Source: Paraburkholderia flagellata
Lineage (GTDB): Bacteria; Pseudomonadota; Gammaproteobacteria; Burkholderiales; Burkholderiaceae
Assembly (NCBI RefSeq): GCF_021390645.1
Contig: NZ_JAJEJT010000003.1
Span: 1,178,001-1,242,000, forward strand
DNA: 64,000 nucleotides
Reading direction: 5' to 3'
Shown here: one piece after another, positions 25,444 to 59,536 of the stretch
Layout of the letters: every line of letters starts with the position of its first letter
Numbering within the stretch: position 1 is the stretch's first letter
Program-made: the position numbers and the translations under genes
The notes under the pieces: model-generated
What the model was told of the DNA's origin: nothing
Seen by the model: only the letters and a program-made list of their open reading frames with translations
The model's database searches: none

Positions 25444-25463
25444 GCTTATATCGCGCCGCCGCA

Positions 25464-37798: not shown

Positions 37799-38463
37799 GG
37801 TCGTCTCCGGCTGGCCAGAGCGTGATTATCTTGACGGTGCATCCGATCGATCGTAGGCGAAGCAGCGAGAGGCCCCCAATGCAGAGCCATTTTTGCGTTC
37901 CGGGTCTGCCGGGACGCGAATGAGCGTTGCATCGCATCTTTCAATGTGACGATCCGCACGGCGAAGTGTAAGCAAGGATTAGTGAGACGTCTTGAACAAA
38001 AATGCGCAGATCAAGGCGAATAGATTGGCCTCAAACTCGCCAGAGAGCCGGTATCGTCTGTTTTACTCATAGTCGCGCAGCGCGGTACGCGGCATTGGCG
38101 CTTGTCAGGCAGCATGTATAAATGTCACGCGAGAGCCGGTTTTTTCGTAACGTGGCGATGGAGCCGCTTGTAACTCGTACCACACACGATTTCACTTGTC
38201 CGGAGTGCTGGATTGACGAAAGGCAGCTTGAGGACACCGTGACGACGAACGGCGCAAGCGAAAACGTCAAGTACGTCTTCCTGCCATATGAGCGGAATCC
38301 AGACATGCCGCAAGAGGGGCGAGACCGGAAGGAAGGCGCCTCCGCCCTCGAATCGGTCACCGTACGTCAAGCGGGGGAGCGAAGTCGTGAGCGGGGCTGC
38401 CGCCTGTCCCCGTGTTTCGTCGCGTGTTGCGCACGGCGTCGCGGACCTCGACGGAAATACCGG

Positions 38464-38931
38464 TTAGTGCTCCAGTTCGAATCGACGGGCCGATGCCAAA
38501 TGAACATCGAGCCCCCCGGAGGACTCCAGCACGCTAGCGAGAATTGTGTGGTTCGCGTTGCCCGGCTGGGTGCCACGCCGAGAGGGGCGGTAGACGGGGT
38601 CGCCACGGTTGACGGTCCTGCCCGTCAGGGTGCAAACCGTCTTGTGGCGCGAACGGGTGCGTTTCCAAAGTTGATCCGCGTAATGGCCGCACGTGGCGTC
38701 ATACCAGCAGAGCGAGACAACTGTACTCGAAACGCGTTCGAGTATGCGGATATGGCCAGAAAACGGAACGTGGGAAGCCGATCGAGCTGTCCCATGCCGC
38801 GTCCGCCCGCGATCCGTTTTGCGCGTTGCGCTTTCCTGATGCATGGCCTCGATGTCCGCGGACGCGCGAGAGGCTCGTTCGAGTGAGACGATGGTTTGCT
38901 TCCACGGGTCGTCGTTTGCGCAGGGGGCCAT
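38464..38931 (-). CDS. DUF3331 domain-containing protein
   Basis: A 155-residue protein of a small family I recall mainly from Burkholderiaceae. The characteristic core is HIRILERVSSTVVSLCWYDA, then TCGHYADQLWKR, CTLTGRTVNRGDPVYRPSRR and NANHTILASVL, with conserved CxLTG and RGDPVYRP motifs. The function is unknown. The ATG at 38931 begins the likely protein (MAPCAND); the frame stays open about 90 bp upstream into a sequence repeated at 52853-53012. A decayed relative lies beside that second repeat. Recognition is by remembered family pattern. Confidence 0.7.
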   Translation of the reverse strand: MAPCANDDPWKQTIVSLERASRASADIEAMHQESATRKTDRGRTRHGTARSASHVPFSGHIRILERVSSTVVSLCWYDATCGHYADQLWKRTRSRHKTVCTLTGRTVNRGDPVYRPSRRGTQPGNANHTILASVLESSGGLDVHLASARRFELEH

Positions 38932-39076
38932 TTGGTCAGTTCTGTATCGTAAGTAAGCATGCGATTGGGGACAGGCAAGGCCGCCTGGGCGTGTTGCCGT
39001 TCCGGGCGCCACGCGGGACAACATCGCGTTGAGGCCGCACAGGTGACGCTATTGTGGATCGCTACTGCTAAAAGGT
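38911..39076. repeat. dispersed direct repeat R2, copy 1 (DUF3331 gene 5' region)
   Basis: From CGTTTGCGCAGGGG to ACTGCTAAAAGGT this block closely matches 52853-53012 in the same orientation, with several small indels. It covers the start codon region and upstream sequence of the DUF3331 gene. The rest of 37799-38463 and 39077-39167 holds no gene I can support. Confidence 0.85.
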
Positions 39077-39167
39077 CCTGCGCAGGAAGGTAAAAAAAAC
39101 TGAACCGCCGAAGGCGCAGCAAGGGCGCCAGCCGGCAACAGCCCGCTGGCCGCATGTCACTGCGATG

Positions 39168-39353
39168 TTAGTTAGGGATGGATACAAAGGCCGGATAGCC
39201 GATATGGCTTGGCCCGTTGCCGCTAAAGAATGTGTCCAGGCCGGCCATGTTGAGGCGCAGCGCGGCACGCAAATATGCAGAGCGGTTTGGGTTGGCGATG
39301 AACGGGCCGCCGGACGCGAAGAGATTCGCGCCGCCGCTTTCGAGCGAACTCGG
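39168..39353 (-). pseudogene. Old Yellow Enzyme C-terminal fragment
   Basis: The minus frame reads SSLESGGANLFASGGPFIAN then PNRSAYLRAALRLNMAG and SHIGYPAF before the stop. This is the flavin phosphate loop and C-terminus of an OYE (compare GRPFIANPDL and YGG..GYTDYP in the intact genes). The catalytic barrel is missing. It lies between the two repeat elements R2 and R1. Confidence 0.75.
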
Positions 39354-39389
39354 CAACGCAGATCATGGGTGGCCTTAGCCGGCAACCGG

Positions 39390-39508
39390 AGCCCTGCCGG
39401 CATCTGACTGAGGCATTAAGCATATTTAAATGCCGGAAAAGGATCTTTTATTTCCGCGCCACTAAGCTTCGTTCCCGATGCAGGGTGTGGCCCGCTTGCA
39501 TCGTGGAC
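39390..39508. repeat. dispersed direct repeat R1, copy 1
   Basis: The block contains GCATATTTAAATGCCGGAAA and ends CTTGCATCGTGGAC; it matches 54069-54193 at roughly 80-85 percent by eye, same orientation. GCATATTTAAATGC is a near-palindrome and AT-rich, so R1 may be a promoter or operator. It lies about 65 bp before the haloperoxidase-like gene. Confidence 0.8.
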
Positions 39509-39573
39509 AACAGCAACGTGCGGACTCATCACGCGCCACCGCGCGTAGGGGTATGCAACGAGGGAGAACAAGG

Positions 39574-40557
39574 ATGAGTTTGCAAGAGAGTACGATCGCG
39601 CCGTCGCGGACGCGACGCAGAATTCTTTCGGTTGGCGCAGGCGTGGTCGGTACGGTCGCCATGTCGGGTCTGCCCGCGGTGGCGTCGGCTGCCGGCGGCA
39701 CGGCCTCGCATACTGCCAACGAGCATCAGCGTAACGGCAGCTACGTGAAGGCCAAGGATGGCACCGAGATCTACGTCAAGGCCTGGGGCACGGGCGCCCC
39801 GGTGGTCTTCTCGCACGGCTGGCCGCTTTCGGCGGATGCGTGGGATCCGCAGATGCTCTATCTGGTAAGTCAGGGATATCGCGTGATCGCACATGACCGT
39901 CGCGGGCACGGCCGCTCGGGCCAGCCATTTGCCGGAAACGATATGGATACCTATGCAGATGATCTGGCGGCTGTGCTCGACGCGCTCGATGTGCACAACG
40001 CCATGCTCGTCGGCCATTCGACGGGCGGCGGTGAGGTCGCGCACTACATCGGCCGGCACGGTTCGAAACGGGTGACAAAGGTAGTGTTGATCGGTGCCGT
40101 GCCGCCGCAGATGGTCAAGTCGGCGACCAATCCCGGTGGCCTGCCCATGCCCGTTTTCGACGGCATTCGCGACGGCGTAGCAGCCAATCGCTCGCAGTTC
40201 TATCTCGACCTCGCAACGCCGTTCTATGGCTTCAACCGCCCTAACGCAAAGGTGTCGCAGGGTCTCGTTCAGGACTTCTGGCGGCAGGGCATGCAAGGCT
40301 CGATCAAAGGCCAGTACGAGTGCATCAAGCAGTTCTCCGAGGTCGACTACACGGAAGACCTGAAGAGGATGGACATGCCAACCCTCATCCTCCACGGCGA
40401 CGATGATCAGATCGTGCCGATCGATGATTCTGCGCGTCTGTCGGTGAAGCTCATCAAGCACGCCACCCTCAAAGTCTATCCGGGCGCGCCGCATGGTATG
40501 TGCAGCACGCATTTCGCCCAGGTGAACGCGGATCTGCTGGCGTTCCTGAGGGCATAA
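39574..40557 (+). CDS. alpha/beta hydrolase, non-heme haloperoxidase-like, Tat-exported
   Basis: A 327-residue protein. The N-terminus has a twin-arginine-type signal ([20 protein letters not shown], then A-rich region). The mature part is the cofactor-free chloroperoxidase/esterase fold: [15 protein letters not shown] (oxyanion), nucleophile elbow [19 protein letters not shown] (acid) and YPGAPHGM (His). Such enzymes act as esterases and, with organic acids, as perhydrolases. ATG 39574 follows AAGGATG and GGGAG. It opens the peroxide/electrophile-stress block. Confidence 0.92.
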
Positions 40558-40718
40558 GGCCGGTTTCGAGGAAAGCTGTCCGGAGGCTCTTCGGCTGCGC
40601 CGGCACGCATTGCAAAGGCGAGGCCAGAGTCGTCCGAAAAGCGCGCGAACTCGAACCCCGTGGAGAGACCGATAGCATTCGCTCGCGCATCGCGACAGGC
40701 GTGGGCAAGGAGCGCGTC

Positions 40719-41417
40719 ATGAAATATGAGCTTGCGGCAACACCGGACGAAGTGGCGGGCGTGTGTATTCCGCGCACCGCGCTCGCGGCGCTCGCCGTCG
40801 AGAACGTCTGCGCCGTGCTCGATCCGGTTCTGGTGGGACACGCTCATCGTGTGTTCGTGTTCGCTGCGCTCGCCGCCCTTAGCGAGCGGCATGCATGCGA
40901 CGCCGAAATCCTCTACGTGAGCGCGATGTACGCGAACATGGGCCTGAGCCCAGCCTATGCGCACTCGAGCTCGCGTTATGAGGTGGACAGCGCGGACGCG
41001 GCGCGCGTGCTGCTTGCGGGGGTCTCGCCGCGCGTGGCCGAGGACGTGTGGCGTGCGATCGCGCTGCACACCACGCCGGGCATTCCAGAGCATGTTTCGC
41101 CACTTGCGCGGCTGCTGGCGCGAGCCGCGGGGACCGATCTAGTCGGTGCGAACTATGACGCTTATACGTGCGCCGAGCACGCGGCCATTCTCGCAGCCTA
41201 TCCGCGCGGAGCCACGTTCAGCGAAGACGTGATCCGGGCGATAGGCAGCGGTGTCGCCCATCGTCCGCAGACGACGAGCGGCACGTGGAGCGCGGACATT
41301 CTTGCCCGCCTCGATCCCGACTACTGCCGGCTGAATTATTGCGGGCTCATTCTCGGCTCGCGCTGGACTCAGCCGGACAACAACTTTTTTTCTCACTCAA
41401 GAAGACATAAATCATGA
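40719..41417 (+). CDS. HD-domain (cyanamide hydratase-like) protein with degenerate HD motif
   Basis: A 232-residue protein resembling bacterial HD-domain/cyanamide hydratase-like hydrolases: HAHRVFVFAALAALSERHAC, then EILYVSAMYANMGLSPAY and ALHTTPGIPEHVSPLARLL. In the family the second block reads AALLHDLGL, with the His-Asp metal pair; here it is SAMYANMGL, so both residues are replaced (Ala-Asn). Metal-dependent phosphohydrolase or hydratase activity is therefore doubtful. AAGGAG precedes the ATG. Its last bases overlap the BON gene start (ATGA), so the two are translationally coupled. Confidence 0.8.
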   Translation: MKYELAATPDEVAGVCIPRTALAALAVENVCAVLDPVLVGHAHRVFVFAALAALSERHACDAEILYVSAMYANMGLSPAYAHSSSRYEVDSADAARVLLAGVSPRVAEDVWRAIALHTTPGIPEHVSPLARLLARAAGTDLVGANYDAYTCAEHAAILAAYPRGATFSEDVIRAIGSGVAHRPQTTSGTWSADILARLDPDYCRLNYCGLILGSRWTQPDNNFFSHSRRHKS

Positions 41418-41809
41418 AGCACTGTTTCATTCCGATGCTGGCCGCACTCGCATTTACAAGCGTTCAGGCCTTGGCCGCCGATGCGGCAACGTCTTATTCG
41501 CCGCCTGTCGTGGCGCAAGTGCCGTACGCCGCGTCGGGTGCGGCACAGGATAAAGCGGCGCGCAAAGCGGCTCACAAGGCAGCGAAACTCGCTGACCGCC
41601 ATCTGGCGGCAAACGTGCGCAAGGCGCTGACGAAGCAGCGCGATGTGGCAATGGCAAACGTCGTCGTGCTCGCGAAAACGGGTGTTGTCACGCTCACAGG
41701 ATCGGTTCCCGAGACTACCCAGATCGCGGCCGCGCAGCAGCACGCGCAAGACGTGGAAGGCGTGAGCCAGGTCGTCAACCGACTGACATTGCGCACGCCG
41801 GGCAACTGA
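41414..41809 (+). CDS. secreted BON domain protein
   Basis: A 131-residue protein with signal peptide (ending QALAADA). A basic, Ala-rich linker (AARKAAHKAAKLADRH) precedes one BON domain (VRKALTKQRDVAMANVVVLA, then GVVTLTGSVPET and GVSQVVNRLTL). BON proteins such as OsmY sit in the periplasm and bind membranes or stabilise envelopes under stress. It overlaps the HD gene by 4 bp. A related BON protein lies at 54495-54854, just outside the other repeat copy. The gap to katG (41810-42341) holds an operator-like repeat but no supported gene. Confidence 0.88.
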   Translation: MKHCFIPMLAALAFTSVQALAADAATSYSPPVVAQVPYAASGAAQDKAARKAAHKAAKLADRHLAANVRKALTKQRDVAMANVVVLAKTGVVTLTGSVPETTQIAAAQQHAQDVEGVSQVVNRLTLRTPGN

Positions 41810-42077
41810 GCGGCCATGAGGCGGTGGACGTATGCGCTGCGGAGCTGCCACGGCGTGAGTCCGGCATCCGGTCAGGCGCATGCTGCCCGAAAGCTCAGCC
41901 GGCTTTACGCCGGCTTGCGCGGATTGCGGGGCGACTCGTTGAACGTATGGAGTACGCCATTCAGGGAGGTGGCAAATTTTTGGGCGATTCACGCGTCGAT
42001 ATCCTCGGGCACCCGCAGGGCGTAAATCCACTTGTGTGGCTCCGTCAACTTGACTAGCGGACCTGGCAATACTCAAA

Positions 42078-42110
42078 ATTGAATAGGTATGAGTAGGTAT
42101 CCTAATCAAT
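42078..42110. promoter_or_regulatory. operator-like imperfect inverted repeat upstream of katG
   Basis: ATTGAATAGG and CCTAATCAAT (9 of 10 paired) flank two tandem decamers GAATAGGTAT and GAGTAGGTAT. The block is about 230 bp before the chosen katG ATG. OxyR sites are built from ATAG/CTAT half-sites, so an OxyR-like role is conceivable but unproven; no oxyR gene is in the window. Confidence 0.4.
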
Positions 42111-42167
42111 TTATAAAAACCGTCCATACAGCTGTCCATCCATACCATGCGGCGATGCGTATCTTGA

Positions 42168-44522
<2,355 letters not shown>

Positions 44523-44671
44523 AGCGGGGCAGCGGGTAACCGGCTGCCTGGCGCCTGCCATCGAGGCTGGCGCAGCGGAAGGTTCGCTGTCGGTCGAAGG
44601 CGCGCCCGACGCCGCTGCGCAAAGCCTTTACCTACTTAATCGTTTTTTCACTCTCAACCTGGAGAAGCAAC

Positions 44672-45358
44672 ATGAAAGTCCTGATGGTTCTGACCTCGCA
44701 CGACCAGCTCGGCAACACCGGCCGCAAGACCGGCTTCTGGCTCGAAGAACTGGCCGCCCCTTACTACGCTTTCAAGGATGCCGGCGCGCAGATCGTGTTG
44801 GCCTCGCCCAAGGGCGGCCAGCCGCCGCTCGACCCCAAGAGCAACGAACCGGCCTTCCAGACAGAGGAAACCCGCCGCTTCGAGGCCGACGCGCAGGCAA
44901 CGGCTCAACTGGCTGCGACCGTGCGTCTGGACAGCGTGAACCAGGCTGACTTCGATACGGTGTTCTATCCGGGCGGCCACGGCCCGCTGTGGGATCTGGC
45001 CGAAGACGGGCACTCGATCGCGCTGATCGAATCCTTCCTCGCGGCGCGTAAGCCGATCGCGCTGGTCTGCCACGCGCCGGGCGTACTGCGCCATGTCAGG
45101 AAGCCCGATGGCAGGCCGCTGGTCCAAGGCAAGAAAGTCACCGGCTTCACCAACACCGAGGAAGCTGCGGTGCAACTCACCGACGTGGTGCCGTTTCTGG
45201 TCGAAGACGAACTCACGGCTCTGGGCGGTAACTTCACGCGCGGCGATGACTGGGCCTCGTATGTGGTGAGCGATGGTCTGCTGATTACTGGCCAGAACCC
45301 CGGTTCCTCTGCCGAGGCCGCGAAATTGTTGCTCAAGCAACTCAGTGCAGGCAGGTAA
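44672..45358 (+). CDS. DJ-1/PfpI superfamily protein (type 1 glutamine amidotransferase-like)
   Basis: A 228-residue protein of the Hsp31/YhbO-like class. The nucleophile elbow is IALVCHAPGVL; the acid region is TVFYPGGHGPLWDLAED and TGQNPGSS closes the domain. Relatives are chaperones, proteases or glyoxalase III-type enzymes that remove methylglyoxal and protein glycation. The gene is 150 bp after katG with a GGAG site, and 2 bp before a DUF1330 gene. A role in carbonyl or electrophile stress is inferred from context. Confidence 0.9.
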   Translation: MKVLMVLTSHDQLGNTGRKTGFWLEELAAPYYAFKDAGAQIVLASPKGGQPPLDPKSNEPAFQTEETRRFEADAQATAQLAATVRLDSVNQADFDTVFYPGGHGPLWDLAEDGHSIALIESFLAARKPIALVCHAPGVLRHVRKPDGRPLVQGKKVTGFTNTEEAAVQLTDVVPFLVEDELTALGGNFTRGDDWASYVVSDGLLITGQNPGSSAEAAKLLLKQLSAGR

Positions 45359-45360
45359 TC

Positions 45361-45666
45361 GTGAGCGCCTACGTGGTGATGATCCGCGAGCGCGTGACGA
45401 ACCAGGCAGCGATGGACACCTACGCCAAATTGGCCCCGCTCGCGCGTGAAGGACACAACATTGAACGTCTGGCTTTCTACGGCGAGCTGGACATGCTGGA
45501 AGGTGCGCCCGTCGACGGCGTGGTCATCAACCGCTTCGCGACGATGGAAGACGCCCGTCGCTGGTACGACAGCTCGGCTTATAAGGCTGCACGCGTTCAC
45601 CGCCAGCGCGGCGCGAACTACCGCGTTTTCATCGTCGAAGGCGTCGACGCGAAACCGGTGGCTTGA
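45361..45666 (+). CDS. DUF1330 domain-containing protein
   Basis: A 101-residue protein of the dimeric alpha/beta-barrel DUF1330 family: YVVMIRERVTNQAAMDTYAK, then GVVINRFATMEDARRWYDS and YRVFIVEG. The biochemical function of the family is not established. It begins with GTG two bases after the stop of the DJ-1-like gene, so both are very likely co-translated. Confidence 0.88.
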   Translation: MSAYVVMIRERVTNQAAMDTYAKLAPLAREGHNIERLAFYGELDMLEGAPVDGVVINRFATMEDARRWYDSSAYKAARVHRQRGANYRVFIVEGVDAKPVA

Positions 45667-45774
45667 TGGCCGCGACACAACATGGAAAGTCCTGGCGGTG
45701 TGGTTGCCCGGATGCAACCGCATCAGCGCAGGGCTGAGGCGATAACTTTCTCTAACAGAAAAGAGGTGATTGTG

Positions 45775-47232
45775 ATGCTGGAACGTATCAAATCCGCCGG
45801 CTGGTTGCGCGAAACCAACTTCATCAACGGCCAATGGGTCGCCGCAGATGACGGCTGCATCGTGGCCGTGGAAGACCCTGCCACGGGCAACCAGATTGGC
45901 ATCATTGCTCGATCTGGTGCTACTGAAACGCATCGCGCCATCGACGCCGCCCACGCGGCGTTCACGAACTGGTCGATGACCACGGCCGCCGAGCGTGCGG
46001 AACTGCTGCAAGCGATTGCGCGTACAGTGCGCGAGAACATGGACGAACTGGCCGCCATGCTCACGCTGGAGCAAGGCAAGCCGCTGGCCGAAGCCCGCAC
46101 GGAAATGAAACTCGGCGCGGACTATATCCAGTGGTTCGCCGAAGAAGCCAGGCGCATCAACGGCGAGATTATTCCGTCGCCGTGGAAAGATCGGCAAATC
46201 TTGGTGACACGCGAGCCGGTTGGTGTGGTCGCAGCGATTTCGCCTTGGAATTTTCCGTTCTCGATGCTGGCGCGCAAGGTTGCCCCGGCGCTGGCGGCGG
46301 GCTGCACCATCGTGGTCAAGCCGGCCGATCTCACGCCGTACTGCGGTCTGCTGTGGGGCGTGCTGGCCGAAAAGGCGGGCATTCCGGCGGGCGTGGTTAA
46401 TGTGGTGACAGGCGATGCCGCGGCCATCGGTGGTGAACTGACCGCCGATGCGCGTGTGCGCAAGCTGACCTTTACCGGTTCCACACGGGTCGGCAAGCTG
46501 CTTTACGGACAATCCGCCGAGACGGTGAAGAAACTTTCGCTGGAATTGGGCGGCAATGCGCCCTTCATCGTTTTCGACGATGCCGACATCGATGCGGCCA
46601 TCGAAGGCGCGCTGGCCTCCAAGTACCGCAACAGCGGACAGACCTGCATCTGCACCAATCGGTTCTACGTGCAAGACGGCATCTACGACGAGTTCGCCCG
46701 TCGCTTTGCCGAGCGAGTGCGTGCAATCAAGGTCGGCAACGGCTTCGAGCCGGACGTGCAGCAAGGCCCCCTTATCAACGTCGCTGCGGTGCAGAAAGTC
46801 GAGAGCCACGTTAGCGATGCGCAAGCCAAAGGCGGAAAGATTCTCGCTGGCGGCAAGCGTCATGCACTCGGCGCGACGTTCTTCGAGCCGACCGTCATCG
46901 CCAATGCAACCGACGACATGCTGATCGCTAACGAAGAAACCTTCGGCCCGGTGGCGGCGCTGTTCCGCTTCAAGAATGAGCAGGAAGCCATTGAAAAGGC
47001 CAATGCCACCGAGTTCGGGCTGGCCGCGTATTTTTATACCCGCAACCTGTCTCGCGTGTTCCGCGTGTCGCGTGCGCTGGAGAGCGGCATGGTCGCCGTC
47101 AACGCGGGCCTGGTCACGACCGAGGTTGCACCGTTCGGCGGCGTCAAGGACAGCGGCATCGGCAGTGAAGGCTCTTCGCACGGCATCGAGGAATACCTCC
47201 ACCTCAAATACATCAGCCTCGGCGGCGTGTAA
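45775..47232 (+). CDS. NAD(P)-dependent succinate-semialdehyde dehydrogenase-type ALDH
   Basis: A 485-residue aldehyde dehydrogenase, GabD-like: ISPWNFPFSMLARKVAPALA, LSLELGGNAPFIVFDDADID, the catalytic Cys in NSGQTCICTNRFYV, EETFGPVAALFRF, and the C-terminal GGVKDSGIGSEGSSHGIEE. It oxidises succinate semialdehyde or related aldehydes. An AAGAGGTG site lies before the ATG at 45775. It is followed by an OYE gene (36 bp), as is the other ALDH in this window. A role in clearing aldehydes during oxidative stress is inferred. Confidence 0.94.
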   Translation: MLERIKSAGWLRETNFINGQWVAADDGCIVAVEDPATGNQIGIIARSGATETHRAIDAAHAAFTNWSMTTAAERAELLQAIARTVRENMDELAAMLTLEQGKPLAEARTEMKLGADYIQWFAEEARRINGEIIPSPWKDRQILVTREPVGVVAAISPWNFPFSMLARKVAPALAAGCTIVVKPADLTPYCGLLWGVLAEKAGIPAGVVNVVTGDAAAIGGELTADARVRKLTFTGSTRVGKLLYGQSAETVKKLSLELGGNAPFIVFDDADIDAAIEGALASKYRNSGQTCICTNRFYVQDGIYDEFARRFAERVRAIKVGNGFEPDVQQGPLINVAAVQKVESHVSDAQAKGGKILAGGKRHALGATFFEPTVIANATDDMLIANEETFGPVAALFRFKNEQEAIEKANATEFGLAAYFYTRNLSRVFRVSRALESGMVAVNAGLVTTEVAPFGGVKDSGIGSEGSSHGIEEYLHLKYISLGGV

Positions 47233-47268
47233 ACGCGAACGGGCAACAGATCTCGCAAGGAACACACC

Positions 47269-48414
47269 ATGCATCATCCATCGCTGTTCACGTCCGTGAC
47301 GCTGGGACGTCACGCATTGAAGAACCGCATCGTACTGCCGCCTCTGACGCGCCAGCGCAGCGGCCAACCCGGCAACGTGCCGACCGATCTTATGGCCTGC
47401 TATTACCGGCAGCGTGCCGGCGCCGGCTTCATGATCAGCGAAGGCACGCAGATCGAACCGCGTGGCCAAGGCTACGCCTGGACGCCGGGCATCTACAGTC
47501 AGGCGCAGATTGATGGCTGGCGAAAGGTGACCGAGGCCGTCCATGCCGAAGGCGGCATTATCTTTGCGCAACTCTGGCATGTCGGCCGCGTCTCCCATAC
47601 GGCCTTGCAGCCGAACGGTGATGTACCTGTTGCGCCATCCGCCATTCAAGCGAAAAAGGTCAAGTCCTTCATCGAAACCGGCCGTGGCGCCGGCACGCTA
47701 GTCGAACCGTCTGTTCCGCGTGAACTTTCGGTCGCCGAAATCAAGCAGCTAGTAGCGCTCTATGCGCAGGCCGCGAAGAACGCGCTGGCCGCGGGCTTCG
47801 ACGGCGTCGAGATCCATTCGGCCAACGGGTATCTGGTCAACCAGTTCATCTCGACGCACGCCAATCATCGCACCGATGAATACGGTGGATCGTTGCAGAA
47901 CCGCCTACGGTTCCTGCGCGAAATCGTTGAGGGAGTTGGTGAAGTCGTTGGACCGGATCGGCTGGGCGTGCGGTTCACTCCGCTGTTCACCAGCACCGAT
48001 CAGGACAGGGTCTACATCGGCTTCGTCGAAGACGATCCGCACCAAACCTACATCGAAGCAATCAAGGTACTGGAAGCGGCAGGTGTCGCTTATGTGTCGA
48101 TTGCCGAGGCCGATTGGGACAACGCGCCTGATCTCCCCGAGGACTTCCGGCGCGCGGTACGGCAAGCGTTCAGTGGGCGGATTCTCTATGCCGGCCGCTA
48201 CACCGCCGAACGAGGTGCCCGACTGGTGGATGCCGGCCTGGCCGACCTCATCGCTTTCGGACGCCCATTCATCGCCAATCCTGACTTGCCCGAGCGCATT
48301 GCCAACGGCTGGCCTCTGAACACCCTCGATCCAGTTACGATCTACGGCGGCGAGGAACAAGGGTTCACTGATTATCCGGTGTACGCGCAAGCATCCGGAC
48401 TTACTACGAAATAG
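47269..48414 (+). CDS. Old Yellow Enzyme family alkene reductase
   Basis: A 381-residue FMN enoate reductase: RIVLPPLTRQRSGQPGNVPT, QLWHVGRVSHTA, the active-site EIHSANGYLVNQF, RTDEYGGSLQNRLRF and LIAFGRPFIANPDLPER. It reduces electrophilic alkenes such as N-ethylmaleimide or enones. The intact active-site His/Asn pair and full length contrast with the OYE tail at 39168. It sits between the ALDH and SDR genes (6 bp before the SDR ATG), so it is in an operon. Confidence 0.95.
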   Translation: MHHPSLFTSVTLGRHALKNRIVLPPLTRQRSGQPGNVPTDLMACYYRQRAGAGFMISEGTQIEPRGQGYAWTPGIYSQAQIDGWRKVTEAVHAEGGIIFAQLWHVGRVSHTALQPNGDVPVAPSAIQAKKVKSFIETGRGAGTLVEPSVPRELSVAEIKQLVALYAQAAKNALAAGFDGVEIHSANGYLVNQFISTHANHRTDEYGGSLQNRLRFLREIVEGVGEVVGPDRLGVRFTPLFTSTDQDRVYIGFVEDDPHQTYIEAIKVLEAAGVAYVSIAEADWDNAPDLPEDFRRAVRQAFSGRILYAGRYTAERGARLVDAGLADLIAFGRPFIANPDLPERIANGWPLNTLDPVTIYGGEEQGFTDYPVYAQASGLTTK

Positions 48415-48420
48415 GTTCCC

Positions 48421-49161
48421 ATGAACAACGGTATTGAAAACAAAGTCATCCTGATTACGGGTGGCAGCACTGGACTTGGCGCCGAGACGGCGCGCCTTCT
48501 TGCAACACGCGGCGCAAAGGTGGCTGTGGCCGCACGGCGCAAGGCGAAGCTCGATGAAGTGGTCGCCGACATCGCTGCCAGCGCCGGCACGGCCCGCGCG
48601 TACGCGCTTGACGTGACGGACAAGGCGCAGGTCGAAGCCGTCGTTGCCGCCGTAGTGGCGGATTTCGGCAAGCTCGACGTGCTCATCAACAACGCCGGCC
48701 TGATGCCGATTCGCCCGATGGCGGAAGTGAACACAGACGAGTGGGACGCAATGATCGACGTGAACCTCAAGGGCACGCTTTATGGAATCGCTGCTGCACT
48801 GCCACGTTTCATCGCGCAAGACAGCGGCCACATCATCAACTTGAGTTCGGTCGCCGGCATCAAGGTGTTCGCGCCGGGTGGCACGGTGTATTCGGGCACC
48901 AAGTTCGCGGTGCGGGCGATTTCCGAAGGGCTGCGCCAGGAAGTCGGCGAGAAGATCCGCGTCACGTCCATCGAGCCGGGTGCTGTCGACAGCGATCTTA
49001 AATACAGCACGTCCGGCAATGCCGCCGAAACGGTGCTGAATTTTTACAAGACCGCCATCCCAGCCGATTCGGTCGCACGCGCTATCGCCTTTGCGATCGA
49101 GCAACCCGCGGACGTGGACATCAACGAGATCGTGCTGCGGCCCACGAAGCAAGAGTTTTGA
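48421..49161 (+). CDS. SDR family oxidoreductase
   Basis: A 246-residue short-chain dehydrogenase with intact motifs: nucleotide binding [24 protein letters not shown], catalytic Ser in INLSSVAGI and YSGTK (Tyr/Lys). It starts 6 bp after the OYE gene. The function is likely NADPH reduction of a carbonyl. Its 3' half has been duplicated as a decayed copy at 49661-49980, and a 30-bp scrap of its C-terminal coding sequence recurs at 54205-54234. Confidence 0.94.
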
Positions 49162-49196
49162 TTTGCGAGTGTTCTGAATTATCAAAGGAGTCTGTC

Positions 49197-49622
49197 ATGT
49201 CGATCGAAAAAGTTCTCTACCGCGCCCATGCTACCGCTGCGGGTGGCCGCGATGGCCGGGCCACCGTATCCGAAAGCAGTCTGGACCTGAAGCTCGTCAC
49301 GCCGCGTGAACTGGGCGGCGCTGGCGGTGCCGGCACCAATCCCGAGCAGTTGTTCGCCGCCGGTTACAGCGCCTGCTTTCTTGGTGCCATGAAATTCGTC
49401 GCGCATCGCGACGGCATCGCTATCCCGGCGGACGTGTCGGTGGCTGGAAGCGTGGGCATCGGCGCCATTCCGACGGGTTTTGGCATCGAGGTCGAACTTA
49501 AGATTTCGCTGCCGGGACTCGATCGGGCAATAGCACAAACACTGGTCGAGCGCGCTCACATCGTCTGCCCGTACTCGAACGCGACGCGCGGCAACATCGA
49601 CGTAACGCTCACACTGATCTAA
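49197..49622 (+). CDS. organic hydroperoxide resistance protein (Ohr type)
   Basis: A 141-residue OsmC-superfamily thiol peroxidase. The two redox cysteines are in [12 protein letters not shown] and [29 protein letters not shown] is the Ohr signature. The enzyme reduces organic hydroperoxides, using lipoylated proteins in known relatives. AAAGGAG at 49184 sets the ATG. No OhrR-type regulator gene is adjacent. Together with KatG it gives the block both hydrogen-peroxide and alkyl-hydroperoxide defence. Confidence 0.93.
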
Positions 49623-49660
49623 ACGTTCACGACTCGTTCAACACTTCTATCGATTCGGAA

Positions 49661-49980
49661 TCGCCGGCATCAAGGTGTTCGCGTCGGGTGGCATGGTGTA
49701 TTCGCGCACCAGGTCCGCGGTGTGGGCGATTTCCGAAGGGCTATGCCAGGGAACTGGCGAGAAGATCCGCGGCATGTGTCAAGCCGGGTGCTGTGGACAG
49801 CGATCTTAAATACAGCACGGCCGGTAAAAATGTCGAAACGGTGCCGAAATTCTAGAAGAGCGCCATCTTGGCCAATTCAGTTGCACGGGCCATCGCCTTT
49901 GAGGTCGAGTAACCAGCAGGCGTGCACATCAACCAGATCGTGGTGCGGCCCACGAAGCAAGAGTTTTGGTTTTACGAGTA
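49661..49980 (+). pseudogene. decayed partial copy of the SDR gene 3' half
   Basis: The sequence tracks 48855-49180 for about 320 bp (for example ATCAAGGTGTTCGCG, TGTATTCG, GCGATCTTAAATACAGCACG, AAGCAAGAGTTTTG), with frame-breaking indels and stop codons. The copy lies just after the Ohr gene, so the duplication spans or jumps over it. It fills most of the gap 49623-50041. Confidence 0.9.
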
Positions 49981-50041
49981 ACCGGGAAGGCAGTGAGCCG
50001 CACTCGCATGGCTAATATGACGGTTTTTGACGAAAGCATGG

Positions 50042-51145
50042 ATGGCTTCAACACACGCGAATAAGTCCCCTCAGTGGCGCAAATATTTCTCTCTTGCGCC
50101 TCGCTTCATCGACGAAATGGAGTGCGTCATCGCGGTGTTGTTGGCGATTGGAATGGGACATTATGTCTGCACCAGCAACGTTTCGTGGGCGGCGTTCTCC
50201 GGCTACATGGTGATGCGAGGCCATGTAGCCGACAGTTTTTCCCGTGGATTCATGCGTATTGTCGGCACCGGCTGCGGTGCCGGTTTGGCTGTGTGTCTTA
50301 TTCCCGCAGTTGCATCATCGTGGCTACTGGCGTCACTGGCTGGTGGTTTGATTGCCGGTGTCTCTCTATATGGCGCGATGACGCAGCGTCACGCATATGC
50401 GTGGCTGTTCGTTGGCCTGACTTTCGGCATGGTGATGCTTGATGCGATGGAACACCCCAGCCATTCACCCGTTCGGTTTTCTACTGAACGTGTTTTCGAA
50501 GTCGGAGCCGGAACCGTAGCTTGCATGCTCGTCAGCGCGGTATCGAATTGGACGGTGCGTCGCCGCTGGCCGGCTGAACGTGCTTCACCGACCCGAGAAT
50601 TCCGCTGGCATCCGGGCGCAGCATTTCATGCGATGCAAGGCGCCACCGCGATTGCACTGCTACCGATGATCTCGCACTTTTTCCGAGTCCCGGCCTTGTC
50701 GCAAGGCGCAGTCAGCATCATGGTCGTGATGTTCGTTCCACTCGCAAGCATCGCTCGTTGCGGCTTGGTACCGGTCAGCCGACGATTGGTCCTGAGGCTC
50801 ATTGGTTGCGTTGCCGGATGCGCGCTGGCAACACCCGTGCTGTTGGCCGCACATGGGAGTGCCATCATTCTAATCGTCGGCACCATCGTTGGCGTCATGC
50901 TTGGCCGCCATCTGGAGAACAGTGGAAATGCGTTTTCTTATGCAGGCACCCAATTCACGCTGGCCATTCTTGTGATTCTCGTTCCCGATAACTACGCGCA
51001 TGCTGAACTGACGCCCATATTGACGCGTTTGGCGGGCATTGTTTTAGGTTTTGTATTGCTGGAAGTGGTATTGGTTATTTGGTGCTTGTTTGAATGGCTA
51101 CTCAAACCGGATAAAAAAATTTCATGGATATTTGATGATAGGTGA
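50042..51145 (+). CDS. FUSC family membrane protein
   Basis: A 367-residue integral membrane protein with two blocks of hydrophobic helices, residues about 30-160 and 195-355 (VSWAAFSGYMVMRGHVADSF, then GGLIAGVSLYGAMTQRHAYA and, later, SIMVVMFVPLASIARCG). This resembles the fusaric acid resistance/aromatic acid exporter (FUSC, AaeB) membrane domain duplicated in one chain. It may export an aromatic or acidic compound. No membrane-fusion partner gene is adjacent. ATG 50042 is chosen; a TTG at 50027 is also in frame and neither has a clear ribosome site. Confidence 0.8.
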   Translation: MASTHANKSPQWRKYFSLAPRFIDEMECVIAVLLAIGMGHYVCTSNVSWAAFSGYMVMRGHVADSFSRGFMRIVGTGCGAGLAVCLIPAVASSWLLASLAGGLIAGVSLYGAMTQRHAYAWLFVGLTFGMVMLDAMEHPSHSPVRFSTERVFEVGAGTVACMLVSAVSNWTVRRRWPAERASPTREFRWHPGAAFHAMQGATAIALLPMISHFFRVPALSQGAVSIMVVMFVPLASIARCGLVPVSRRLVLRLIGCVAGCALATPVLLAAHGSAIILIVGTIVGVMLGRHLENSGNAFSYAGTQFTLAILVILVPDNYAHAELTPILTRLAGIVLGFVLLEVVLVIWCLFEWLLKPDKKISWIFDDR

Positions 51146-51418
51146 GGGTGGTGGAAAAATAAGATTTTATATCGTTACTGATTTAAGTTATTCTCGATAA
51201 ATTTCATTTTTACGCATGCGGATGAACGCTTTATATTGAGAATCTCCCTTAATCTCGCTGTGTCCCGTTGTGCGAATAACTATGAACAAGCCTGACATCA
51301 ATTCCGTAGTCGGACTCACAGAGCCGGACCGACGCTAACGCAGGATGAGTTTGTGGGTCATTGAGGCGAGCTACTGAAGACCCTGAACAATGTCGACGTG
51401 AGCTTGGCTTCAACGGAC

Positions 51419-51499
51419 CGTTACATACGTGACCACGACGCCGCGTTCGAGCAACAACCCTTCGACGTCGCGCAGGCTTAGGCAGAACCGAAAATACCA
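51419..51499 (-). pseudogene. IS6-like transposase fragment
   Basis: Twenty-seven minus-strand codons read WYFRFCLSLRDVEGLLLERG followed by VVVTYVT, matching the conserved WYLRY.LS.RDVEELL.ERG segment of IS6-family transposases. Nothing else of the element is intact. It is a different family member from the copies at 25464, 55189 and 59537. The remainder of 51146-51631 shows no gene. Confidence 0.65.
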
Positions 51500-51631
51500 G
51501 CTAACTAACAGTGCAACTAACGACCACGACGCGAAAGTCGCGCCCGTGGTAAGGCGATTTCGTCTTTTTCAATGCCTCATTCTACTGTTGCCTGAGGCGC
51601 ACTAACTTGGCGGAGTCCAGTTCGAAGTAGG

Positions 51632-52492
51632 TCAACTGATTGACTGAGGAAAATACGCGACCCCACGAAGAGCCGAGCGGGTGGCGCCCCCTATCCAAAT
51701 TCCATCAGAGGTGTTGTCGACTCGAATCTGGCACGGACGTTTAAGAACAGTTCCCTGGCTGAACGCGTAAGCTTTGGGTGTGCTATCGTCAAGCGCGAGT
51801 CGCTGCGCCACGCCCGCGACAAGACTGCCTGTAGCAGGATCTTCCGGTACGCTGTCTCCGGCAATGAATGCCCTGATCTCGTAACTGACTTCTGTACTCG
51901 GTGGATCCTTTTTCCAAGGTGCCATAACACCGACCGCTAGTCCCTCAAGCATTGCATAGTTGGGCTTGAGCGATAGAAGCTTTTCGCGGTCATCTATCGC
52001 GATAACCATCCACCCGGCGCCGTTGTCAACCCATTGCGCGCTCGTTACAGTGGCTCCAGCGGCTTCCAAACACAGTCCTGCGCAAACGCGACGCAGCACT
52101 CGCTCATCGACCTCGCCCGACACGACAAGGGGGGGCGCGCGGAAAGCGAGGCCATCCGCGAATTTGCGCACTGTGACCAGGCCTACGCCACACTCCTGGA
52201 CAAATTCGTTTCTGTTAGCAATATGGTTTTTTTCTATCCAAGCGTGACACGTGCCCAATGTAGGATGTCCAGCGAAATCGAGTTCGCGCAGCGACGAAAA
52301 GATTCGTACCCGATAGTCGGCACGCGAGTCCAGCGGATTCATGACGAAGACGGATTCGCTAAGATTGATCCATCGTGTGAATGCGATCATCTCGGAGTCC
52401 GTAAGCTTATCGGCATCAAATACGACAGCGACGGGATTTCCGCCGAATGCAACGTCACTAAAGACGTCGACCACGCTATAGGGAAGCTGCAC
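51632..52492 (-). CDS. PhzF family isomerase/epimerase-like protein
   Basis: A 286-residue PhzF-fold protein: VVDVFSDVAFGGNPVAVVFD at the N-terminus, the catalytic Glu in NLSESVFV, IFSSLRELDFAGHPTLGTCH and the second-domain IRAFIAGDSVPEDPATGSLVAG. The family includes the phenazine enzyme PhzF (an isomerase) and many uncharacterised homologues. There are no phenazine genes here, so it is a generic PhzF relative. It is convergent with the 50-51 kb FUSC gene. Confidence 0.92.
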   Translation of the reverse strand: MQLPYSVVDVFSDVAFGGNPVAVVFDADKLTDSEMIAFTRWINLSESVFVMNPLDSRADYRVRIFSSLRELDFAGHPTLGTCHAWIEKNHIANRNEFVQECGVGLVTVRKFADGLAFRAPPLVVSGEVDERVLRRVCAGLCLEAAGATVTSAQWVDNGAGWMVIAIDDREKLLSLKPNYAMLEGLAVGVMAPWKKDPPSTEVSYEIRAFIAGDSVPEDPATGSLVAGVAQRLALDDSTPKAYAFSQGTVLKRPCQIRVDNTSDGIWIGGATRSALRGVAYFPQSIS

Positions 52493-52536
52493 GCAAGGCC
52501 TATTATTTTGATCGGGTTGACCGGGCTCGAACCGTC

Positions 52537-52874
52537 TTAGCGCAACGGGAGAAGCAAACTGCCCGGGGCATGTCGGAGTCCATCGGCCTTGGCGCTACGC
52601 CGTCCGCGTGAGTAGCGCCTGGTTCCGAATATCGGCGACCTCTGCGTCAATTGACGACACATACCCCTGCCATCCGACGCCTTGTGAAGCACTCGCTTGA
52701 AATTACCTTGTGCTGACAACCATGCACAGCAGTCACGGGACAACCAACACGATGATTGACCTGCTCAGTGTTCTTTACATGAGGTACTGCCTGCTTGAGG
52801 GGAAGTGCTCCGTAGCCTAACTGGGATGCGTCACTGGAAGCAGAGACCGCTTCGGCGTTTGCGCAAGGGTCCAT
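52537..52874 (-). pseudogene. decayed DUF3331 gene (second copy)
   Basis: The minus strand begins MDPCANAEAVSASSDASQLG, parallel to MAPCAND of the intact DUF3331 gene, and shares its upstream repeat. Downstream, two frames would be needed to follow the family (CRQLT...RRYSRGRR resembles CxLTG...VYRPSRR). Frameshifts and stops make it a pseudogene. The first part is supported by nucleotide similarity, the latter part only weakly. Confidence 0.5.
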
Positions 52875-53012
52875 TGGTCAGTTCTGTTTCGTAAGAATGC
52901 GATTGGGTCCAGGCAACGCCGCCTGGGCACATTGGCGTTCCGGGCGCCGCGCGGGACGACATCGCTGAGGCCGGACATGTAACGATATTGTAGATTGCGA
53001 CTGCTAAAAGGT
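52853..53012. repeat. dispersed direct repeat R2, copy 2
   Basis: It runs from GGCGTTTGCGCAAGGG to ACTGCTAAAAGGT and matches 38911-39076 in the same orientation with small indels. It lies between the DUF3331 relic and the AraC gene end at 53017. Confidence 0.85.
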
Positions 53013-53016
53013 GGCA

Positions 53017-53925
53017 TCACGCCGCTCGACGTCGCCATGCGCCAGGAGACACGCCGACGATCCTGTGGAACACGCGGCTCAAGTGGCTTTGATCCGCAAA
53101 GCCGCAGGACGCCGCGATCGCCGCAAGCGTCATGTCCGTGGCGTCCATGAGCCGTCGCGCCTGCTCCGTGCGCTTTTCCAGCACCCACTGATGCGGCGTC
53201 TGCCCCGTTTCCTTCGTGAATGCGCGGATGAAATAGCCGCGCGACAAGTTGCATTCGCGCGCGACGTCTGCGATCGAGAGACCGTTTCGAGAAAAGTCGA
53301 GCAGCATTTCTTTCGCGCGGGCTGCGCAGGCACGCGAGAGTGCCCCCTTTACGCGTTCGTCGGCGGCCCGCAGGTTGCCATATTGACGCGAGAGATGCGT
53401 GCCTATCGCCACGCCGAGCTGTTCGATGAGCAGCGTGTTGGCCGGGCTGGACGTTTCGAGGCTGATAGTGAGCGCGCGCGAGAGATGGCCGAGCACCATG
53501 TCTTCCTGGTCGACCGCGCAGGTCAGCCCTTGGACAGGAGGCACGTTGTGCTCGTCGGTCAGGTGACTCAAGAAAGCGTGAGACAACTCGACCAGCAGAA
53601 AGTCAAAATTGCCGTACAGATCGGCCCGGAAATTCTCGGAGAAGTCGCGAATATAGATCGAGTTGTCATGAAAGCGCCGATCGCTTGTCCGCGCCCCGCG
53701 GAAGATCTTGCGCCGGTGGCCGCTTCGCAGCGAGATGCCCACGAGAAAGCCACGCTCGCATCCGGGCATCGCGATACGTTCCAGCTCCAGCTTGTCCATG
53801 CGCTTGCGAAAGAATGTCATGCCGCCGTTATCGACTTGCAAATCCTGGCGCAGATTCGTGCAAACGCACCCGAGCGAGTCTTTCGAACCGGTTGATGTAT
53901 TCGACATGAGCGGTGATGAATTCAT
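53017..53925 (-). CDS. AraC family transcriptional regulator
   Basis: A regulator of about 302 residues. The C-terminal HTH region is SIADVARECNLSRGYFIRAF and TLAAIAASCGFADQSHLSRV, ending FHRIVGVSPGAW; the N-terminal 200 residues are a variable sensor domain. Two in-frame ATGs (53925, 53907) are possible starts without clear ribosome sites; the frame runs further upstream into repeat R1. It occupies the space between R2 and R1 where copy 1 carries an OYE tail. The target is unknown, possibly the stress genes. Confidence 0.88.
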   Translation of the reverse strand: MNSSPLMSNTSTGSKDSLGCVCTNLRQDLQVDNGGMTFFRKRMDKLELERIAMPGCERGFLVGISLRSGHRRKIFRGARTSDRRFHDNSIYIRDFSENFRADLYGNFDFLLVELSHAFLSHLTDEHNVPPVQGLTCAVDQEDMVLGHLSRALTISLETSSPANTLLIEQLGVAIGTHLSRQYGNLRAADERVKGALSRACAARAKEMLLDFSRNGLSIADVARECNLSRGYFIRAFTKETGQTPHQWVLEKRTEQARRLMDATDMTLAAIAASCGFADQSHLSRVFHRIVGVSPGAWRRRAA

Positions 53926-54068
53926 CGGAGTGATCTGTACGTCTGATAGGGCGTGGTAGCGGTAACACTTCTTGATTATGCCGCAGAACGGATGAGTGCG
54001 TTGGCCGCGCAGACGCAAAAAAGTGGGCGCAACTTCGGGGTATCGACTTGTTTTATTGTTCAGCGTCC

Positions 54069-54193
54069 GGCCGGCACCTTGCCGACATCTGAATGTGGAA
54101 TTAAGCATATTTAAATGCCGGAAAAGGACCTTTCAGTTCCGCGTCAGTAAGCTTTGTTTCCGATGCAGTGCATGGCTTGCTTGCATCGTGGAC
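54069..54193. repeat. dispersed direct repeat R1, copy 2
   Basis: It contains GCATATTTAAATGCCGGAAA and ends CTTGCATCGTGGAC, matching 39390-39508 in the same orientation. It lies upstream of the AraC gene on one side and beside a scrap of SDR coding sequence on the other. Confidence 0.8.
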
Positions 54194-54204
54194 AGAGCGA
54201 CCCG

Positions 54205-54234
54205 AAGACGTGGACATCAACGAGATCGTGCTGC
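54205..54234 (+). pseudogene. 30-bp scrap of SDR C-terminal coding sequence
   Basis: GACGTGGACATCAACGAGAT and the next 8 bases are identical to the C-terminal coding part of the SDR gene (near 49109-49137; peptide DVDINEIVL). It follows repeat R1 copy 2 directly, so the rearrangement that placed R1 also carried an SDR gene end. The rest of 54235-54494 has no supported gene. Confidence 0.75.
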
Positions 54235-54494
54235 TTCAACCCGACCTCTGTGCTCTCGGGAAAAGGATATCGCTTCACCCTCCGTCTGGAGTGACGTCCT
54301 GTTCAATGAGTGCCGTATCGCTATTTATTGAAGGTATCTCCGTCCAACCCACTATTTGCATCAGATCCGTCATTTGAGTCCGCATGGGAGTGCGTTCCGA
54401 AGATCTGATGAAGCCCAATGAGTCGAAGCCTCCAAGCTTCGATAGTGAGAATTAAGCTGTAACTATTCGATACACAACCTCAAGAGGTGATTCC

Positions 54495-54854
54495 ATGAAG
54501 TTTTCGTGCAAAGCACTCGCGGGCGCTTTCGCTGTGCTGCTCTCTTCGGCTGCCCTCGCGCAGACCACGGTACCCAGCGCAAACACTCCGACCATGGAGC
54601 AGATCCGCGCAGAGATGCGCGCCGACAAGGCCGCAAACCGCGCGCTCGCAAAGAAAGTTAAGCAGGCCATCTACCACACGAAAGGTCTGTACGATACCAA
54701 CATAGCCGTCTTCGCCAAGGCGAGAACGGGAGAGGTGATCCTTGCGGGCTTGATCATGGGCGAGCCGCAGGATCAGATCGCCCAGAGCGTCGCGTCGAAG
54801 GTCCAGGGCGTCCAGTCCGTGACCAGCAAGCTCACGGTGTATGAAGCTCCCTGA
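54495..54854 (+). CDS. secreted BON domain protein
   Basis: A 119-residue protein with a signal peptide ending SAALAQ. A charged helical stretch (MEQIRAEMRADKAANRALAK) leads into one BON domain (VKQAIYHTKGLYDTNIAVFA, then GEVILAGLIM and GVQSVTSKLTV). AAGAGGTG precedes the ATG. It is a paralogue of the BON protein at 41414, with the same order of signal, basic linker and BON domain. A role in envelope protection under stress is inferred. Confidence 0.87.
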   Translation: MKFSCKALAGAFAVLLSSAALAQTTVPSANTPTMEQIRAEMRADKAANRALAKKVKQAIYHTKGLYDTNIAVFAKARTGEVILAGLIMGEPQDQIAQSVASKVQGVQSVTSKLTVYEAP

Positions 54855-54941
54855 CAAGACCTTTGGTAGCGCAGCGCAACTATCGACCTCGACTACCGCT
54901 CGGTAATGCGTCGACAAGACGACGCCACGAGCCTAGGTAGC

Positions 54942-54968
54942 CCGCCTGGCCCGTCATGGGCCCGGCGG
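54942..54968. terminator. strong hairpin downstream of the BON gene
   Basis: CCGCCTGGCCC and GGGCCCGGCGG (10 of 11 paired) flank a GTCAT loop, about 90 bp after the BON stop. No T tract follows, so the terminator call is tentative. Confidence 0.35.
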
Positions 54969-55091
54969 ACTCTTGGCACTTTCTGTGGATCCACATTGAG
55001 TCGCGGTTATCAGCGTCAGTTCCAAGCATGCCTAATTTTCCCTGGCGCGATGGTTGTTGCCTCTGATGGAGATTCAATCTTACATACACAG

Positions 55092-55178
55092 CATTCTGTA
55101 ACGCAGGTACCAACGAACGTGCAAGACGATGACTTCACGGCCGAAACGTTGGCCTTTGAGCAAGAGGGATGCGGACAA
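55092..55178 (-). pseudogene. second IS6-like transposase fragment (5' part)
   Basis: The minus frame reads LLKGQRFGREVIVLHVRWYL then RYRM and a stop, homologous to LFTGRHF..EVIVLCVRWYLRYK of the neighbouring IS6 relic but clearly divergent. It is a separate element of the same family, placed head to tail with copy C. Confidence 0.65.
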
Positions 55179-55188
55179 GATCCTCCCA

Positions 55189-55375
55189 TTATTTCAACGA
55201 GGTCTCGAAGGCTGAGCTTGTAACGCAGATACCAACGCACACACAGGACGATGACTTAGCGGTCAAAGTGGCGGCCGGTGAACAGGCTGTCGATGTCTCC
55301 CAGCTTACTCATAGCCTGCTCGCGCTCGTCACAACCCGAACTTAACCTACCGGTGGCTCGATTTGCACCGGAGCC
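55189..55375 (-). mobile_element. IS6-family relic, left end only (copy C)
   Basis: The left inverted repeat GGCTCCGGTGCAAATCGAG lies at 55375, followed on the minus strand by the transposase start MSKLGDIDSLFTGRHFDR, a TAA codon, then VIVLCVRWYLRYKLSLRDLV. It stops at EIM near 55189. The TAA is at the same codon as in copy B (59537), whereas copy A has Glu there. The element faces the carbamoylase gene with its left end. Confidence 0.88.
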
Positions 55376-56657: not shown

Positions 56658-57195
56658 CGGCGCATTCCACTGCCACCGGCTTCGCAACGCGCATGCGATA
56701 GCGGAAATCGCAGCGCTTGCCGCCTTGCATGATGGTGCTCGTTCGCGTGAGCTCGACCCGCGGGTCATAGCCCGAAATGAATTCGCTGTCGCGCGCGCAA
56801 CTCAGCAGATGGCCGATTTCGCCAAGGCCCATGGCGTGATACATCTCGGCGTAGGCGCAGCGATGCACGTCGTAATCGTAGGCTTCGTCGTCGGCGCGCA
56901 GCGTTTCCACGTCGAGCGCGTCGTCCTTTTCCCAGAGCACCTGGAGCGCGACGAACGATGCGATGCTCGTGCCATTCGGTTCGCGCGCCGCGAACTGGCG
57001 GCCCGCATCGATAGCCGCGCCGCGCACGGCCTCGGCAATCGCGGCCTGGGCGCGCTCGATGCCGAAATCGCGCTTGAGGATCTCGTAGATCGGCTTGATG
57101 ATTTCCGCTTCGATGCGCCTGCGCGCCAGAATGCCGAGCGTCTCGCCGTTCACGCCACTCTCGTCCGCGACGGCTTCGCGTTGTTGCTGTGTCAT
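56650..57195 (-). CDS. L-2-amino-thiazoline-4-carboxylic acid hydrolase family protein
   Basis: A 181-residue protein that I assign to the ATC hydrolase family: ARRRIEAEIIKPIYEILKRD near the start, then AYDYDVHRCAYAEMYHAMGL and LSCARDSEFISGYDPRVELT, TIMQGGKRCDFRYRM. In Pseudomonas, ATC hydrolase opens the thiazoline ring to carbamoyl-cysteine, and an N-carbamoyl-cysteine amidase then frees L-cysteine. Here the next gene, overlapping by 8 bp, is exactly such a carbamoylase. The family has many members of untested substrate, so the actual ring compound is inferred. Confidence 0.82.
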   Translation of the reverse strand: MTQQQREAVADESGVNGETLGILARRRIEAEIIKPIYEILKRDFGIERAQAAIAEAVRGAAIDAGRQFAAREPNGTSIASFVALQVLWEKDDALDVETLRADDEAYDYDVHRCAYAEMYHAMGLGEIGHLLSCARDSEFISGYDPRVELTRTSTIMQGGKRCDFRYRMRVAKPVAVECADD

Positions 57196-57222
57196 CTTCG
57201 TCTCCTCGTTACATCGTTTCGT

Positions 57223-58626: not shown

Positions 58627-58633
58627 TCGACAC

Positions 58634-59533: not shown

Positions 59534-59536
59534 TGT

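Follow-up and report, generated by a model that had tools for sequence, protein, structure and literature searches.

In a stretch of 64,000 nucleotides of the Paraburkholderia flagellata genome (contig NZ_JAJEJT010000003.1, positions 1,178,001–1,242,000; hereafter the window, from whose first letter positions are counted unless another locus is named), two short sequences, R2 and R1, each occur twice in the same orientation around a block of stress genes. These repeats look like what remains of an old tandem duplication inside a second copy of a regulator-and-hydrolase locus, and not like the ends of a movable island. Our best explanation as a whole, to which we assign a probability of roughly three in four, is that the window locus (W) is a diverged second copy of a fuller locus (P), that part of W was duplicated in tandem and trimmed by deletions, and that R1 is probably a hydrolase control region, which may now be regulated in trans. 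R1, the apparent control region, now appears also to sit apart from the gene that it once preceded. The new content is a third repeated element and a conserved direct-repeat control element. A traceable history replaces the reading as a "mobile stress island", and a conserved candidate operator is gained.

Both repeat pairs are real, and both are pieces of genes or their borders. The R2 pair (38909–39076 and 52852–53012) aligns at 83% identity over 168 columns (E 2e-42) and the R1 pair (39386–39509 and 54071–54194) at 85% over 124 bp (E 9e-33), with longest identical runs of 14 and 29 bp, respectively. Two direct repeat pairs in the same order and orientation had been reported in a first-pass annotation of this DNA, which named chance composition as the alternative; the alignments bear the pairs out, and no random same-size window pair scored as high as those observed (0/1,975 for R2 and 0/1,977 for R1). 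Because of the gene order in P and in related genomes, R2 can be identified as the 5′ part of the DUF3331 gene, as the same annotation had it (PF11811 match), and R1 as the intergenic region between an AraC-family regulator gene and an alpha/beta hydrolase gene. One extra copy of each element exists in the 9.0-Mb genome, and both lie in the paralogous locus P (C3:625.8–636.9 kb). Two copies each inside 15 kb might suggest that a small mobile repeat gave rise to R1 and R2, but the only three copies of each found in 9 Mb are all within the same homologous locus and the R1 core is similarly placed before the hydrolase in relatives; copy number and position contradict this reading.

P lies on the same contig as W in the opposite orientation. 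Its gene order is a 993-amino-acid (aa) winged-helix/STAND regulator, LysR, DUF3331, old yellow enzyme (OYE), flavoprotein/amidohydrolase/symporter genes, AraC, R1, alpha/beta hydrolase, HD, and BON. The same frame, with gene gaps, is present in six relatives in the genus, P. silvatlantica (G083), P. heleia (G044), P. sacchari (G078), P. susongensis (G132), P. bannensis (G012), and G084: most genes of the OYE-to-AraC interval are absent in G083 and G044, the hydrolase was not seen at the P-type position in G012, and HD and BON were unmatched in the stretch read of G084. R1 and R2 are single in relatives and sited in the P-type locus, and the stress genes from KatG to PhzF were not found in the P-type stretches examined. 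The distribution of the locus is patchy, since a query of AraC with the second R1 copy found no match in the three nearest relatives by rpoB (G059, G002, and G045; 98%). In a family-wide search of 398 genomes, 58 had a match at 1e-20, and those outside the genus matched in the AraC part only, at up to 72%. No record in a plasmid collection covered 80% of the block (megablast), and no literature on DUF3331 was found.

W consists of two unequal copies. Its left part includes the 993-aa regulator gene (34817–37798, minus strand; N-terminal winged helix, Trans_reg_C, and NB-ARC/STAND ATPase by Pfam), which has 87% DNA identity to P 642320–639216. Copy 1 continues with DUF3331 (38464–39024, minus strand; 186-aa open reading frame (ORF), PF11811 2e-21), whose 5′ part and upstream edge form the first R2 (38909–39076, plus strand; +1 and +4 bp in the alignment relative to six other copies). 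A deletion scar follows (39346–39386, plus strand): compared with P, AraC and the OYE-side genes are gone here. The surroundings of the scar (39345–39399) match P 627279–627226, past the AraC 3′ end. Then come the first R1 (39386–39509, plus strand), the downstream alpha/beta hydrolase gene (39574–40557, plus strand; Pfam, earlier called "haloperoxidase-like"), with an N-terminus that looks Tat-like, an HD-type protein gene (40500–41417, plus strand; weak cyanamide-hydratase-family match, with homologues in P and relatives), and a BON-domain protein gene (41414–41809, plus strand; Pfam). Homology of copy 1 to P stops at 42034.

Copy 2 begins with the second R2 (R2′, 52852–53012, plus strand), which is cut inside the DUF3331 upstream element and joined at 53012/53015 to the 3′ end of AraC (53017–53907, minus strand; Pfam, 296 aa from the ATG at 53907). 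The full 363-aa ORF has the C-terminal domains of the AraC family (HTH_AraC 3e-26, HTH_18 4e-25). Beyond it lies the second R1 (R1′, 54071–54194, plus strand), whose downstream hydrolase is now gone, and R1′ is joined to 40 bp of the 3′ end of an SDR gene (54195–54234, plus strand). Across the whole genome the single strong non-self match of this tail is the block SDR at 49099–49138 (93%, E 9e-10), the next match having an E value of 0.04. A small ORF 300 bp past R1′ (54495–54854), with weak, below-cutoff matches to BON and DUF4148, could be read from R1′.

Three elements, not two, thus recur in the same order in both copies (R2, R1, and the SDR 3′ end), which makes tandem duplication with deletions a simple account. 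Under it, the segment duplicated in tandem within W would have measured 10 kb or more, reaching from DUF3331 to the SDR 3′ end or beyond, and later deletions would have trimmed it: copy 1 would have kept DUF3331, R1, the hydrolase, and the stress genes and lost AraC, while copy 2 would have lost the hydrolase and the stress genes and retained a stub of DUF3331 together with AraC, R1′, and 40 bp of SDR. Reciprocal gene loss after a tandem segmental duplication is a known process, and W resembles it in having collinear diverged copies, each holding what the other lost. Unlike the usual case, a regulator has been split from its presumed target, with the shared intergenic region present in both copies. 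Three features are absent from the first-pass annotation: the AraC gene that lies between R2′ and R1′, the SDR end adjoining R1′, and an SDR repeat of 319 bp flanking ohr (below).

Trees of the repeats support duplication within W. With R1 and R2 combined (P, G083, G044, G078, and G132 as the other copies; G084 and G012 were excluded for short or missing matches), the two W copies are sisters with support of 99/96 and P is next (95/94), and groupings of copy 1 with P and of copy 2 with P are each rejected (p-AU 0.021, approximately unbiased test). R2 alone gives the same pair (96/93) and unites both W copies with P (98/97). The two W copies share four derived sites in R2 and two in R1, counts that omit gapped columns. 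The suggestion of an old segmental duplication made in the first-pass annotation is strengthened by these results. An improbable alternative is that R2′, AraC, and R1′ entered beside W as an independent insertion, in a further transfer whose source was P or another strain. Copy 2 has breakpoints of its own, copy 1 lacks AraC, and R1 alone does not decide how the two W copies are placed, all of which would fit such an event; the combined tree with its rejected alternatives speaks against it, as does the SDR 3′ end after R1′, which strongly matches only the block SDR in the genome.

Several results weigh against the explanation that we prefer. R1 alone leaves the sister pair undecided (78/77; copy 2 with P, p-AU 0.22). 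The SDR tail is just 40 bp long. No residual homology to the parts of copy 1 compared was found in 49973–52851 or 54235–54494, which makes the extent of the duplicated unit less certain. Among gene trees, from which relatives under 60% cover were excluded, those of AraC and of the hydrolase do not resolve W, P, and the relatives, and that of HD–BON sets W nearer to the relatives (92/93); for these reasons W could derive from an unsampled lineage.

Acquisition of the whole W locus from a related species, in place of copying from P within the genome, is accordingly an alternative that we consider rather unlikely, and it is compatible with a later tandem duplication. It draws on the same AraC, hydrolase, and HD–BON trees and on W branches that are 1.5 to 4 times the length of the P branches. 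Against it stand the winged-helix/STAND gene, for which W and P are sisters (100/100), the R2 grouping of both W copies with P, and the absence of W among the matches listed in 143 genus relatives. Both origins, by copying from P or from a near relative outside the sample, are conceivable for W.

Whatever its source, W has probably remained under constraint. In pairwise comparison of six genes, W and P differ at dS (synonymous divergence) of 0.26–0.37, with ratios of nonsynonymous to synonymous divergence (dN/dS) of 0.14–0.41 (hydrolase 0.14, AraC 0.21, DUF3331 0.30), and the W genes, AraC among them, contain no internal stop. The AraC ratio, also pairwise, is higher between W and P (0.21) than between P and G083 (0.12), so W has evolved more quickly while still looking constrained.

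The reading first proposed for this DNA, in which the block is a stress island with the repeats as its ends, open to deletion, amplification, or movement by recombination, now seems highly improbable, and we dropped it as the best reading. Direct repeats of 124–168 bp do flank 14–15 kb, and R1 has one identical run of 29 bp. Yet the repeats are not near-identical (83–85%), with no identical run beyond 14 bp in R2 and 29 bp in R1, and this divergence speaks against ready excision; the repeats are also pieces of a standing locus, and no integrase was found among the ORFs scanned. A comparison with relatives had been suggested as a check: among the matches listed in 143 genus relatives there is neither the W arrangement of the block nor a collapsed form, in searches that scored about two stretches per genome and so could miss a weak second copy.

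R1 probably controls the hydrolase, because a direct-repeat element is conserved upstream of that gene. The R1 core (39415–39449, plus strand, and 54100–54134) is nearly invariant over seven copies and holds imperfect direct repeats about 22 bp apart, 125–159 bp before the hydrolase ATG. A decayed form of the element lies at the R2 edge (39070–39104, minus strand), 46–80 bp before the DUF3331 ATG at 39024, and R2′ is broken off inside it. Sites in R1 and at the DUF3331 edge share two AGGA-TTT-like units (AGGA-N1-2-TTT) 21–22 bp apart. With a matrix built from the R1 core only, the best non-R1 site fell at the upstream edge of DUF3331 in P, G083, G044, G078, G132, G012, G084, and W copy 1, at modest scores.

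A strict pattern, built from the R1 and DUF3331 sites plus sites in G137, G138, and G011, had 10 matches across the window and 12 related stretches, 297 kb in total (shuffle mean 0.0), seven of them beside DUF3331 (7/7 canonical loci) and three upstream of the hydrolase. It had no match in 24 control loci (413 kb) and one in 29 short AraC neighborhoods, at an already-known site. In held-out hydrolase upstream regions, comprising all previously unused matches of at least 78% identity among the matches listed (G107 down to G103), the strict pattern was found in 7/23 and a two-mismatch form, fixed before this result was known, in 18/23, where shuffles expect 0.00 and 0.30. Neither form occurred upstream of 17 divergent hydrolase homologues, part of a much longer list (0/17 each). 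The repeat starts at -152 to -155 from the hydrolase ATG in W copy 1, P, G011, L098, L099, L100, L108, and L119 (extrapolated in L119) and at -169 to -192 in seven other regions (partly extrapolated), the rest being absent or unreliable; several ATG positions were extrapolated, and 2/23 regions had no hydrolase match. Within the window the two-mismatch form has five matches: the R2 edge, R1, R1′ (two overlapping), and 63332.

The operator analysis has points of its own on the unfavorable side. In the R1 matrix scan of G044, 1/8 shuffles outscored the DUF3331 site; the strict pattern was written after the first loci had been seen, and its strict form is absent from the window and from G113; the two-mismatch form is missing in 5/23 held-out regions; and these 23 regions, from 22 genomes, are orthologues and not independent draws.

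AraC-family regulators can be divergent from their own target operon, and two-turn direct repeats fit AraC-type sites. The layout here is similar, as AraC and the hydrolase diverge from R1 in P, G083, G044, G078, G132, and G084; it differs in G011 and G113, where AraC is nearly 4 kb away from the hydrolase. The winged-helix/STAND protein is the other candidate. Sites of SARP regulators are direct repeats whose units are spaced by one or two turns of the helix, at 11 or 22 bp (PMC10936776; PMC5930380), and a BTAD domain defines SARPs (PMC10936776). The likeness to Streptomyces SARP/AfsR lies in the spacing of 21–22 bp and in a large protein that combines a winged helix at its N-terminus with a STAND-type ATPase. 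An operator of the SARP type would be expected near -35; the repeat here lies about 155 bp upstream of the ATG. We did not adopt the SARP label for the 993-aa protein (34817–37798): a winged helix and a STAND ATPase are among its Pfam matches, BTAD is not.

The R1 element would probably be bound by a regulator of the locus, either AraC or the winged-helix/STAND protein. The AraC proteins of W and P share 87% identity and do not differ in the stretches that we take to be their recognition helices. If AraC binds, the copy 2 protein and its P paralogue could continue to act on the hydrolase promoter at a distance of 14 kb. We tentatively propose, at somewhat less than even odds, that R1 and the R2 edge bear a putatively undescribed direct-repeat operator, its two units spaced by two helical turns, through which the AraC or winged-helix/STAND regulator of the locus may control both the hydrolase and DUF3331 across many Paraburkholderia. 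Here the duplication would have left the R1-form operator at three sites and araC at two, with regulator and target parted yet wired in trans. W would then be a natural case of a regulator parted from its presumed target by duplication and deletion, which allows a test of surviving trans control.

The stress genes between the repeats look like separate modules. Pfam and NCBIfam matches uphold most of the gene list given earlier (alpha/beta hydrolase, BON, KatG, DJ-1, DUF1330, ALDH, OYE, SDR, Ohr, FUSC, and PhzF), the HD assignment falling to a weak, below-cutoff NCBIfam match. KatG catalase-peroxidase (42177–44522, plus strand) is the sole KatG found in the genome, and it sits in rearranged DNA adjoining an unrelated locus. 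Its true start may lie downstream of 42177, because most homologues align from about residue 50. KatG exceeds 80% identity in 7/143 genus relatives, most others being at 62–73%, and is unmatched at 1e-30 in 39/144 genomes; in the 10–17 kb around the seven nearest KatG relatives no other block gene was found except a 38% ALDH in G111.

The next genes (DJ-1, DUF1330, ALDH, OYE, and SDR; 44672–49161, plus strand) contain a DJ-1–OYE–SDR module that recurs, with gene order and strand unchanged, in G035, G127, G138, G103, G036, and G108 (the G036 SDR has an internal gap and the G035 DJ-1 matches in two pieces), and a DJ-1–ALDH pair occurs in G093. The window thus resembles Paraburkholderia DJ-1/old yellow enzyme/SDR clusters in the order and strand of three genes; unlike them, it carries DUF1330 and ALDH within the module, and ohr with a truncated SDR after it. 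The 3′ part of SDR (48846–49164, plus strand) is repeated at 84% identity in that truncated SDR (49654–49972, plus strand), and this 319-bp repeat flanks the Ohr peroxiredoxin gene (49158–49622, plus strand; TIGR03561), as if ohr had arrived with a second SDR end. FUSC-like (50027–51145, plus strand) and PhzF-like (51632–52492, minus strand) protein genes follow. A single stress regulon was considered and rejected: in the 64-kb window the two-mismatch direct-repeat motif sits at the R1 and R2 elements and at 63332, and none precedes KatG or DJ-1. With DJ-1–OYE–SDR a module of its own and the nearest KatG relatives free of other block genes, the earlier idea that these genes might form one functional system is not borne out.

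Other scans added little. Rfam had no match in 38000–56000, the window contains no tRNA, and promoter (6 versus 5.8) and terminator (19 versus 16.4) scans were at about chance and were not used. A second winged-helix/STAND protein (492 aa, 31598–33076) has 85% DNA identity to P 653852–652387, and the gap between the two winged-helix/STAND genes is about 10 kb in P versus about 2 kb in the window; a search of four proteins against an anti-phage library returned weak TRIP13 matches only, for this 492-aa protein. Relics of IS6-family elements lie at 25453–25966, 55097–55376, and 59537–60045 and are 96–97% identical over 153–190 bp (PF13610 DDE_Tnp_IS240 for 59537–60045; plasmid matches annotated IS6). 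The relics ending at 25966 and 55376 point in the same direction and enclose the entire W locus. The 4.15 kb at 55387–59536 (M20 peptidase, periplasmic binding protein, and LysR) is 86–90% identical in G019, G078, G118, and G133; within the stretches read, this homology stops at the IS6 relics on both sides.

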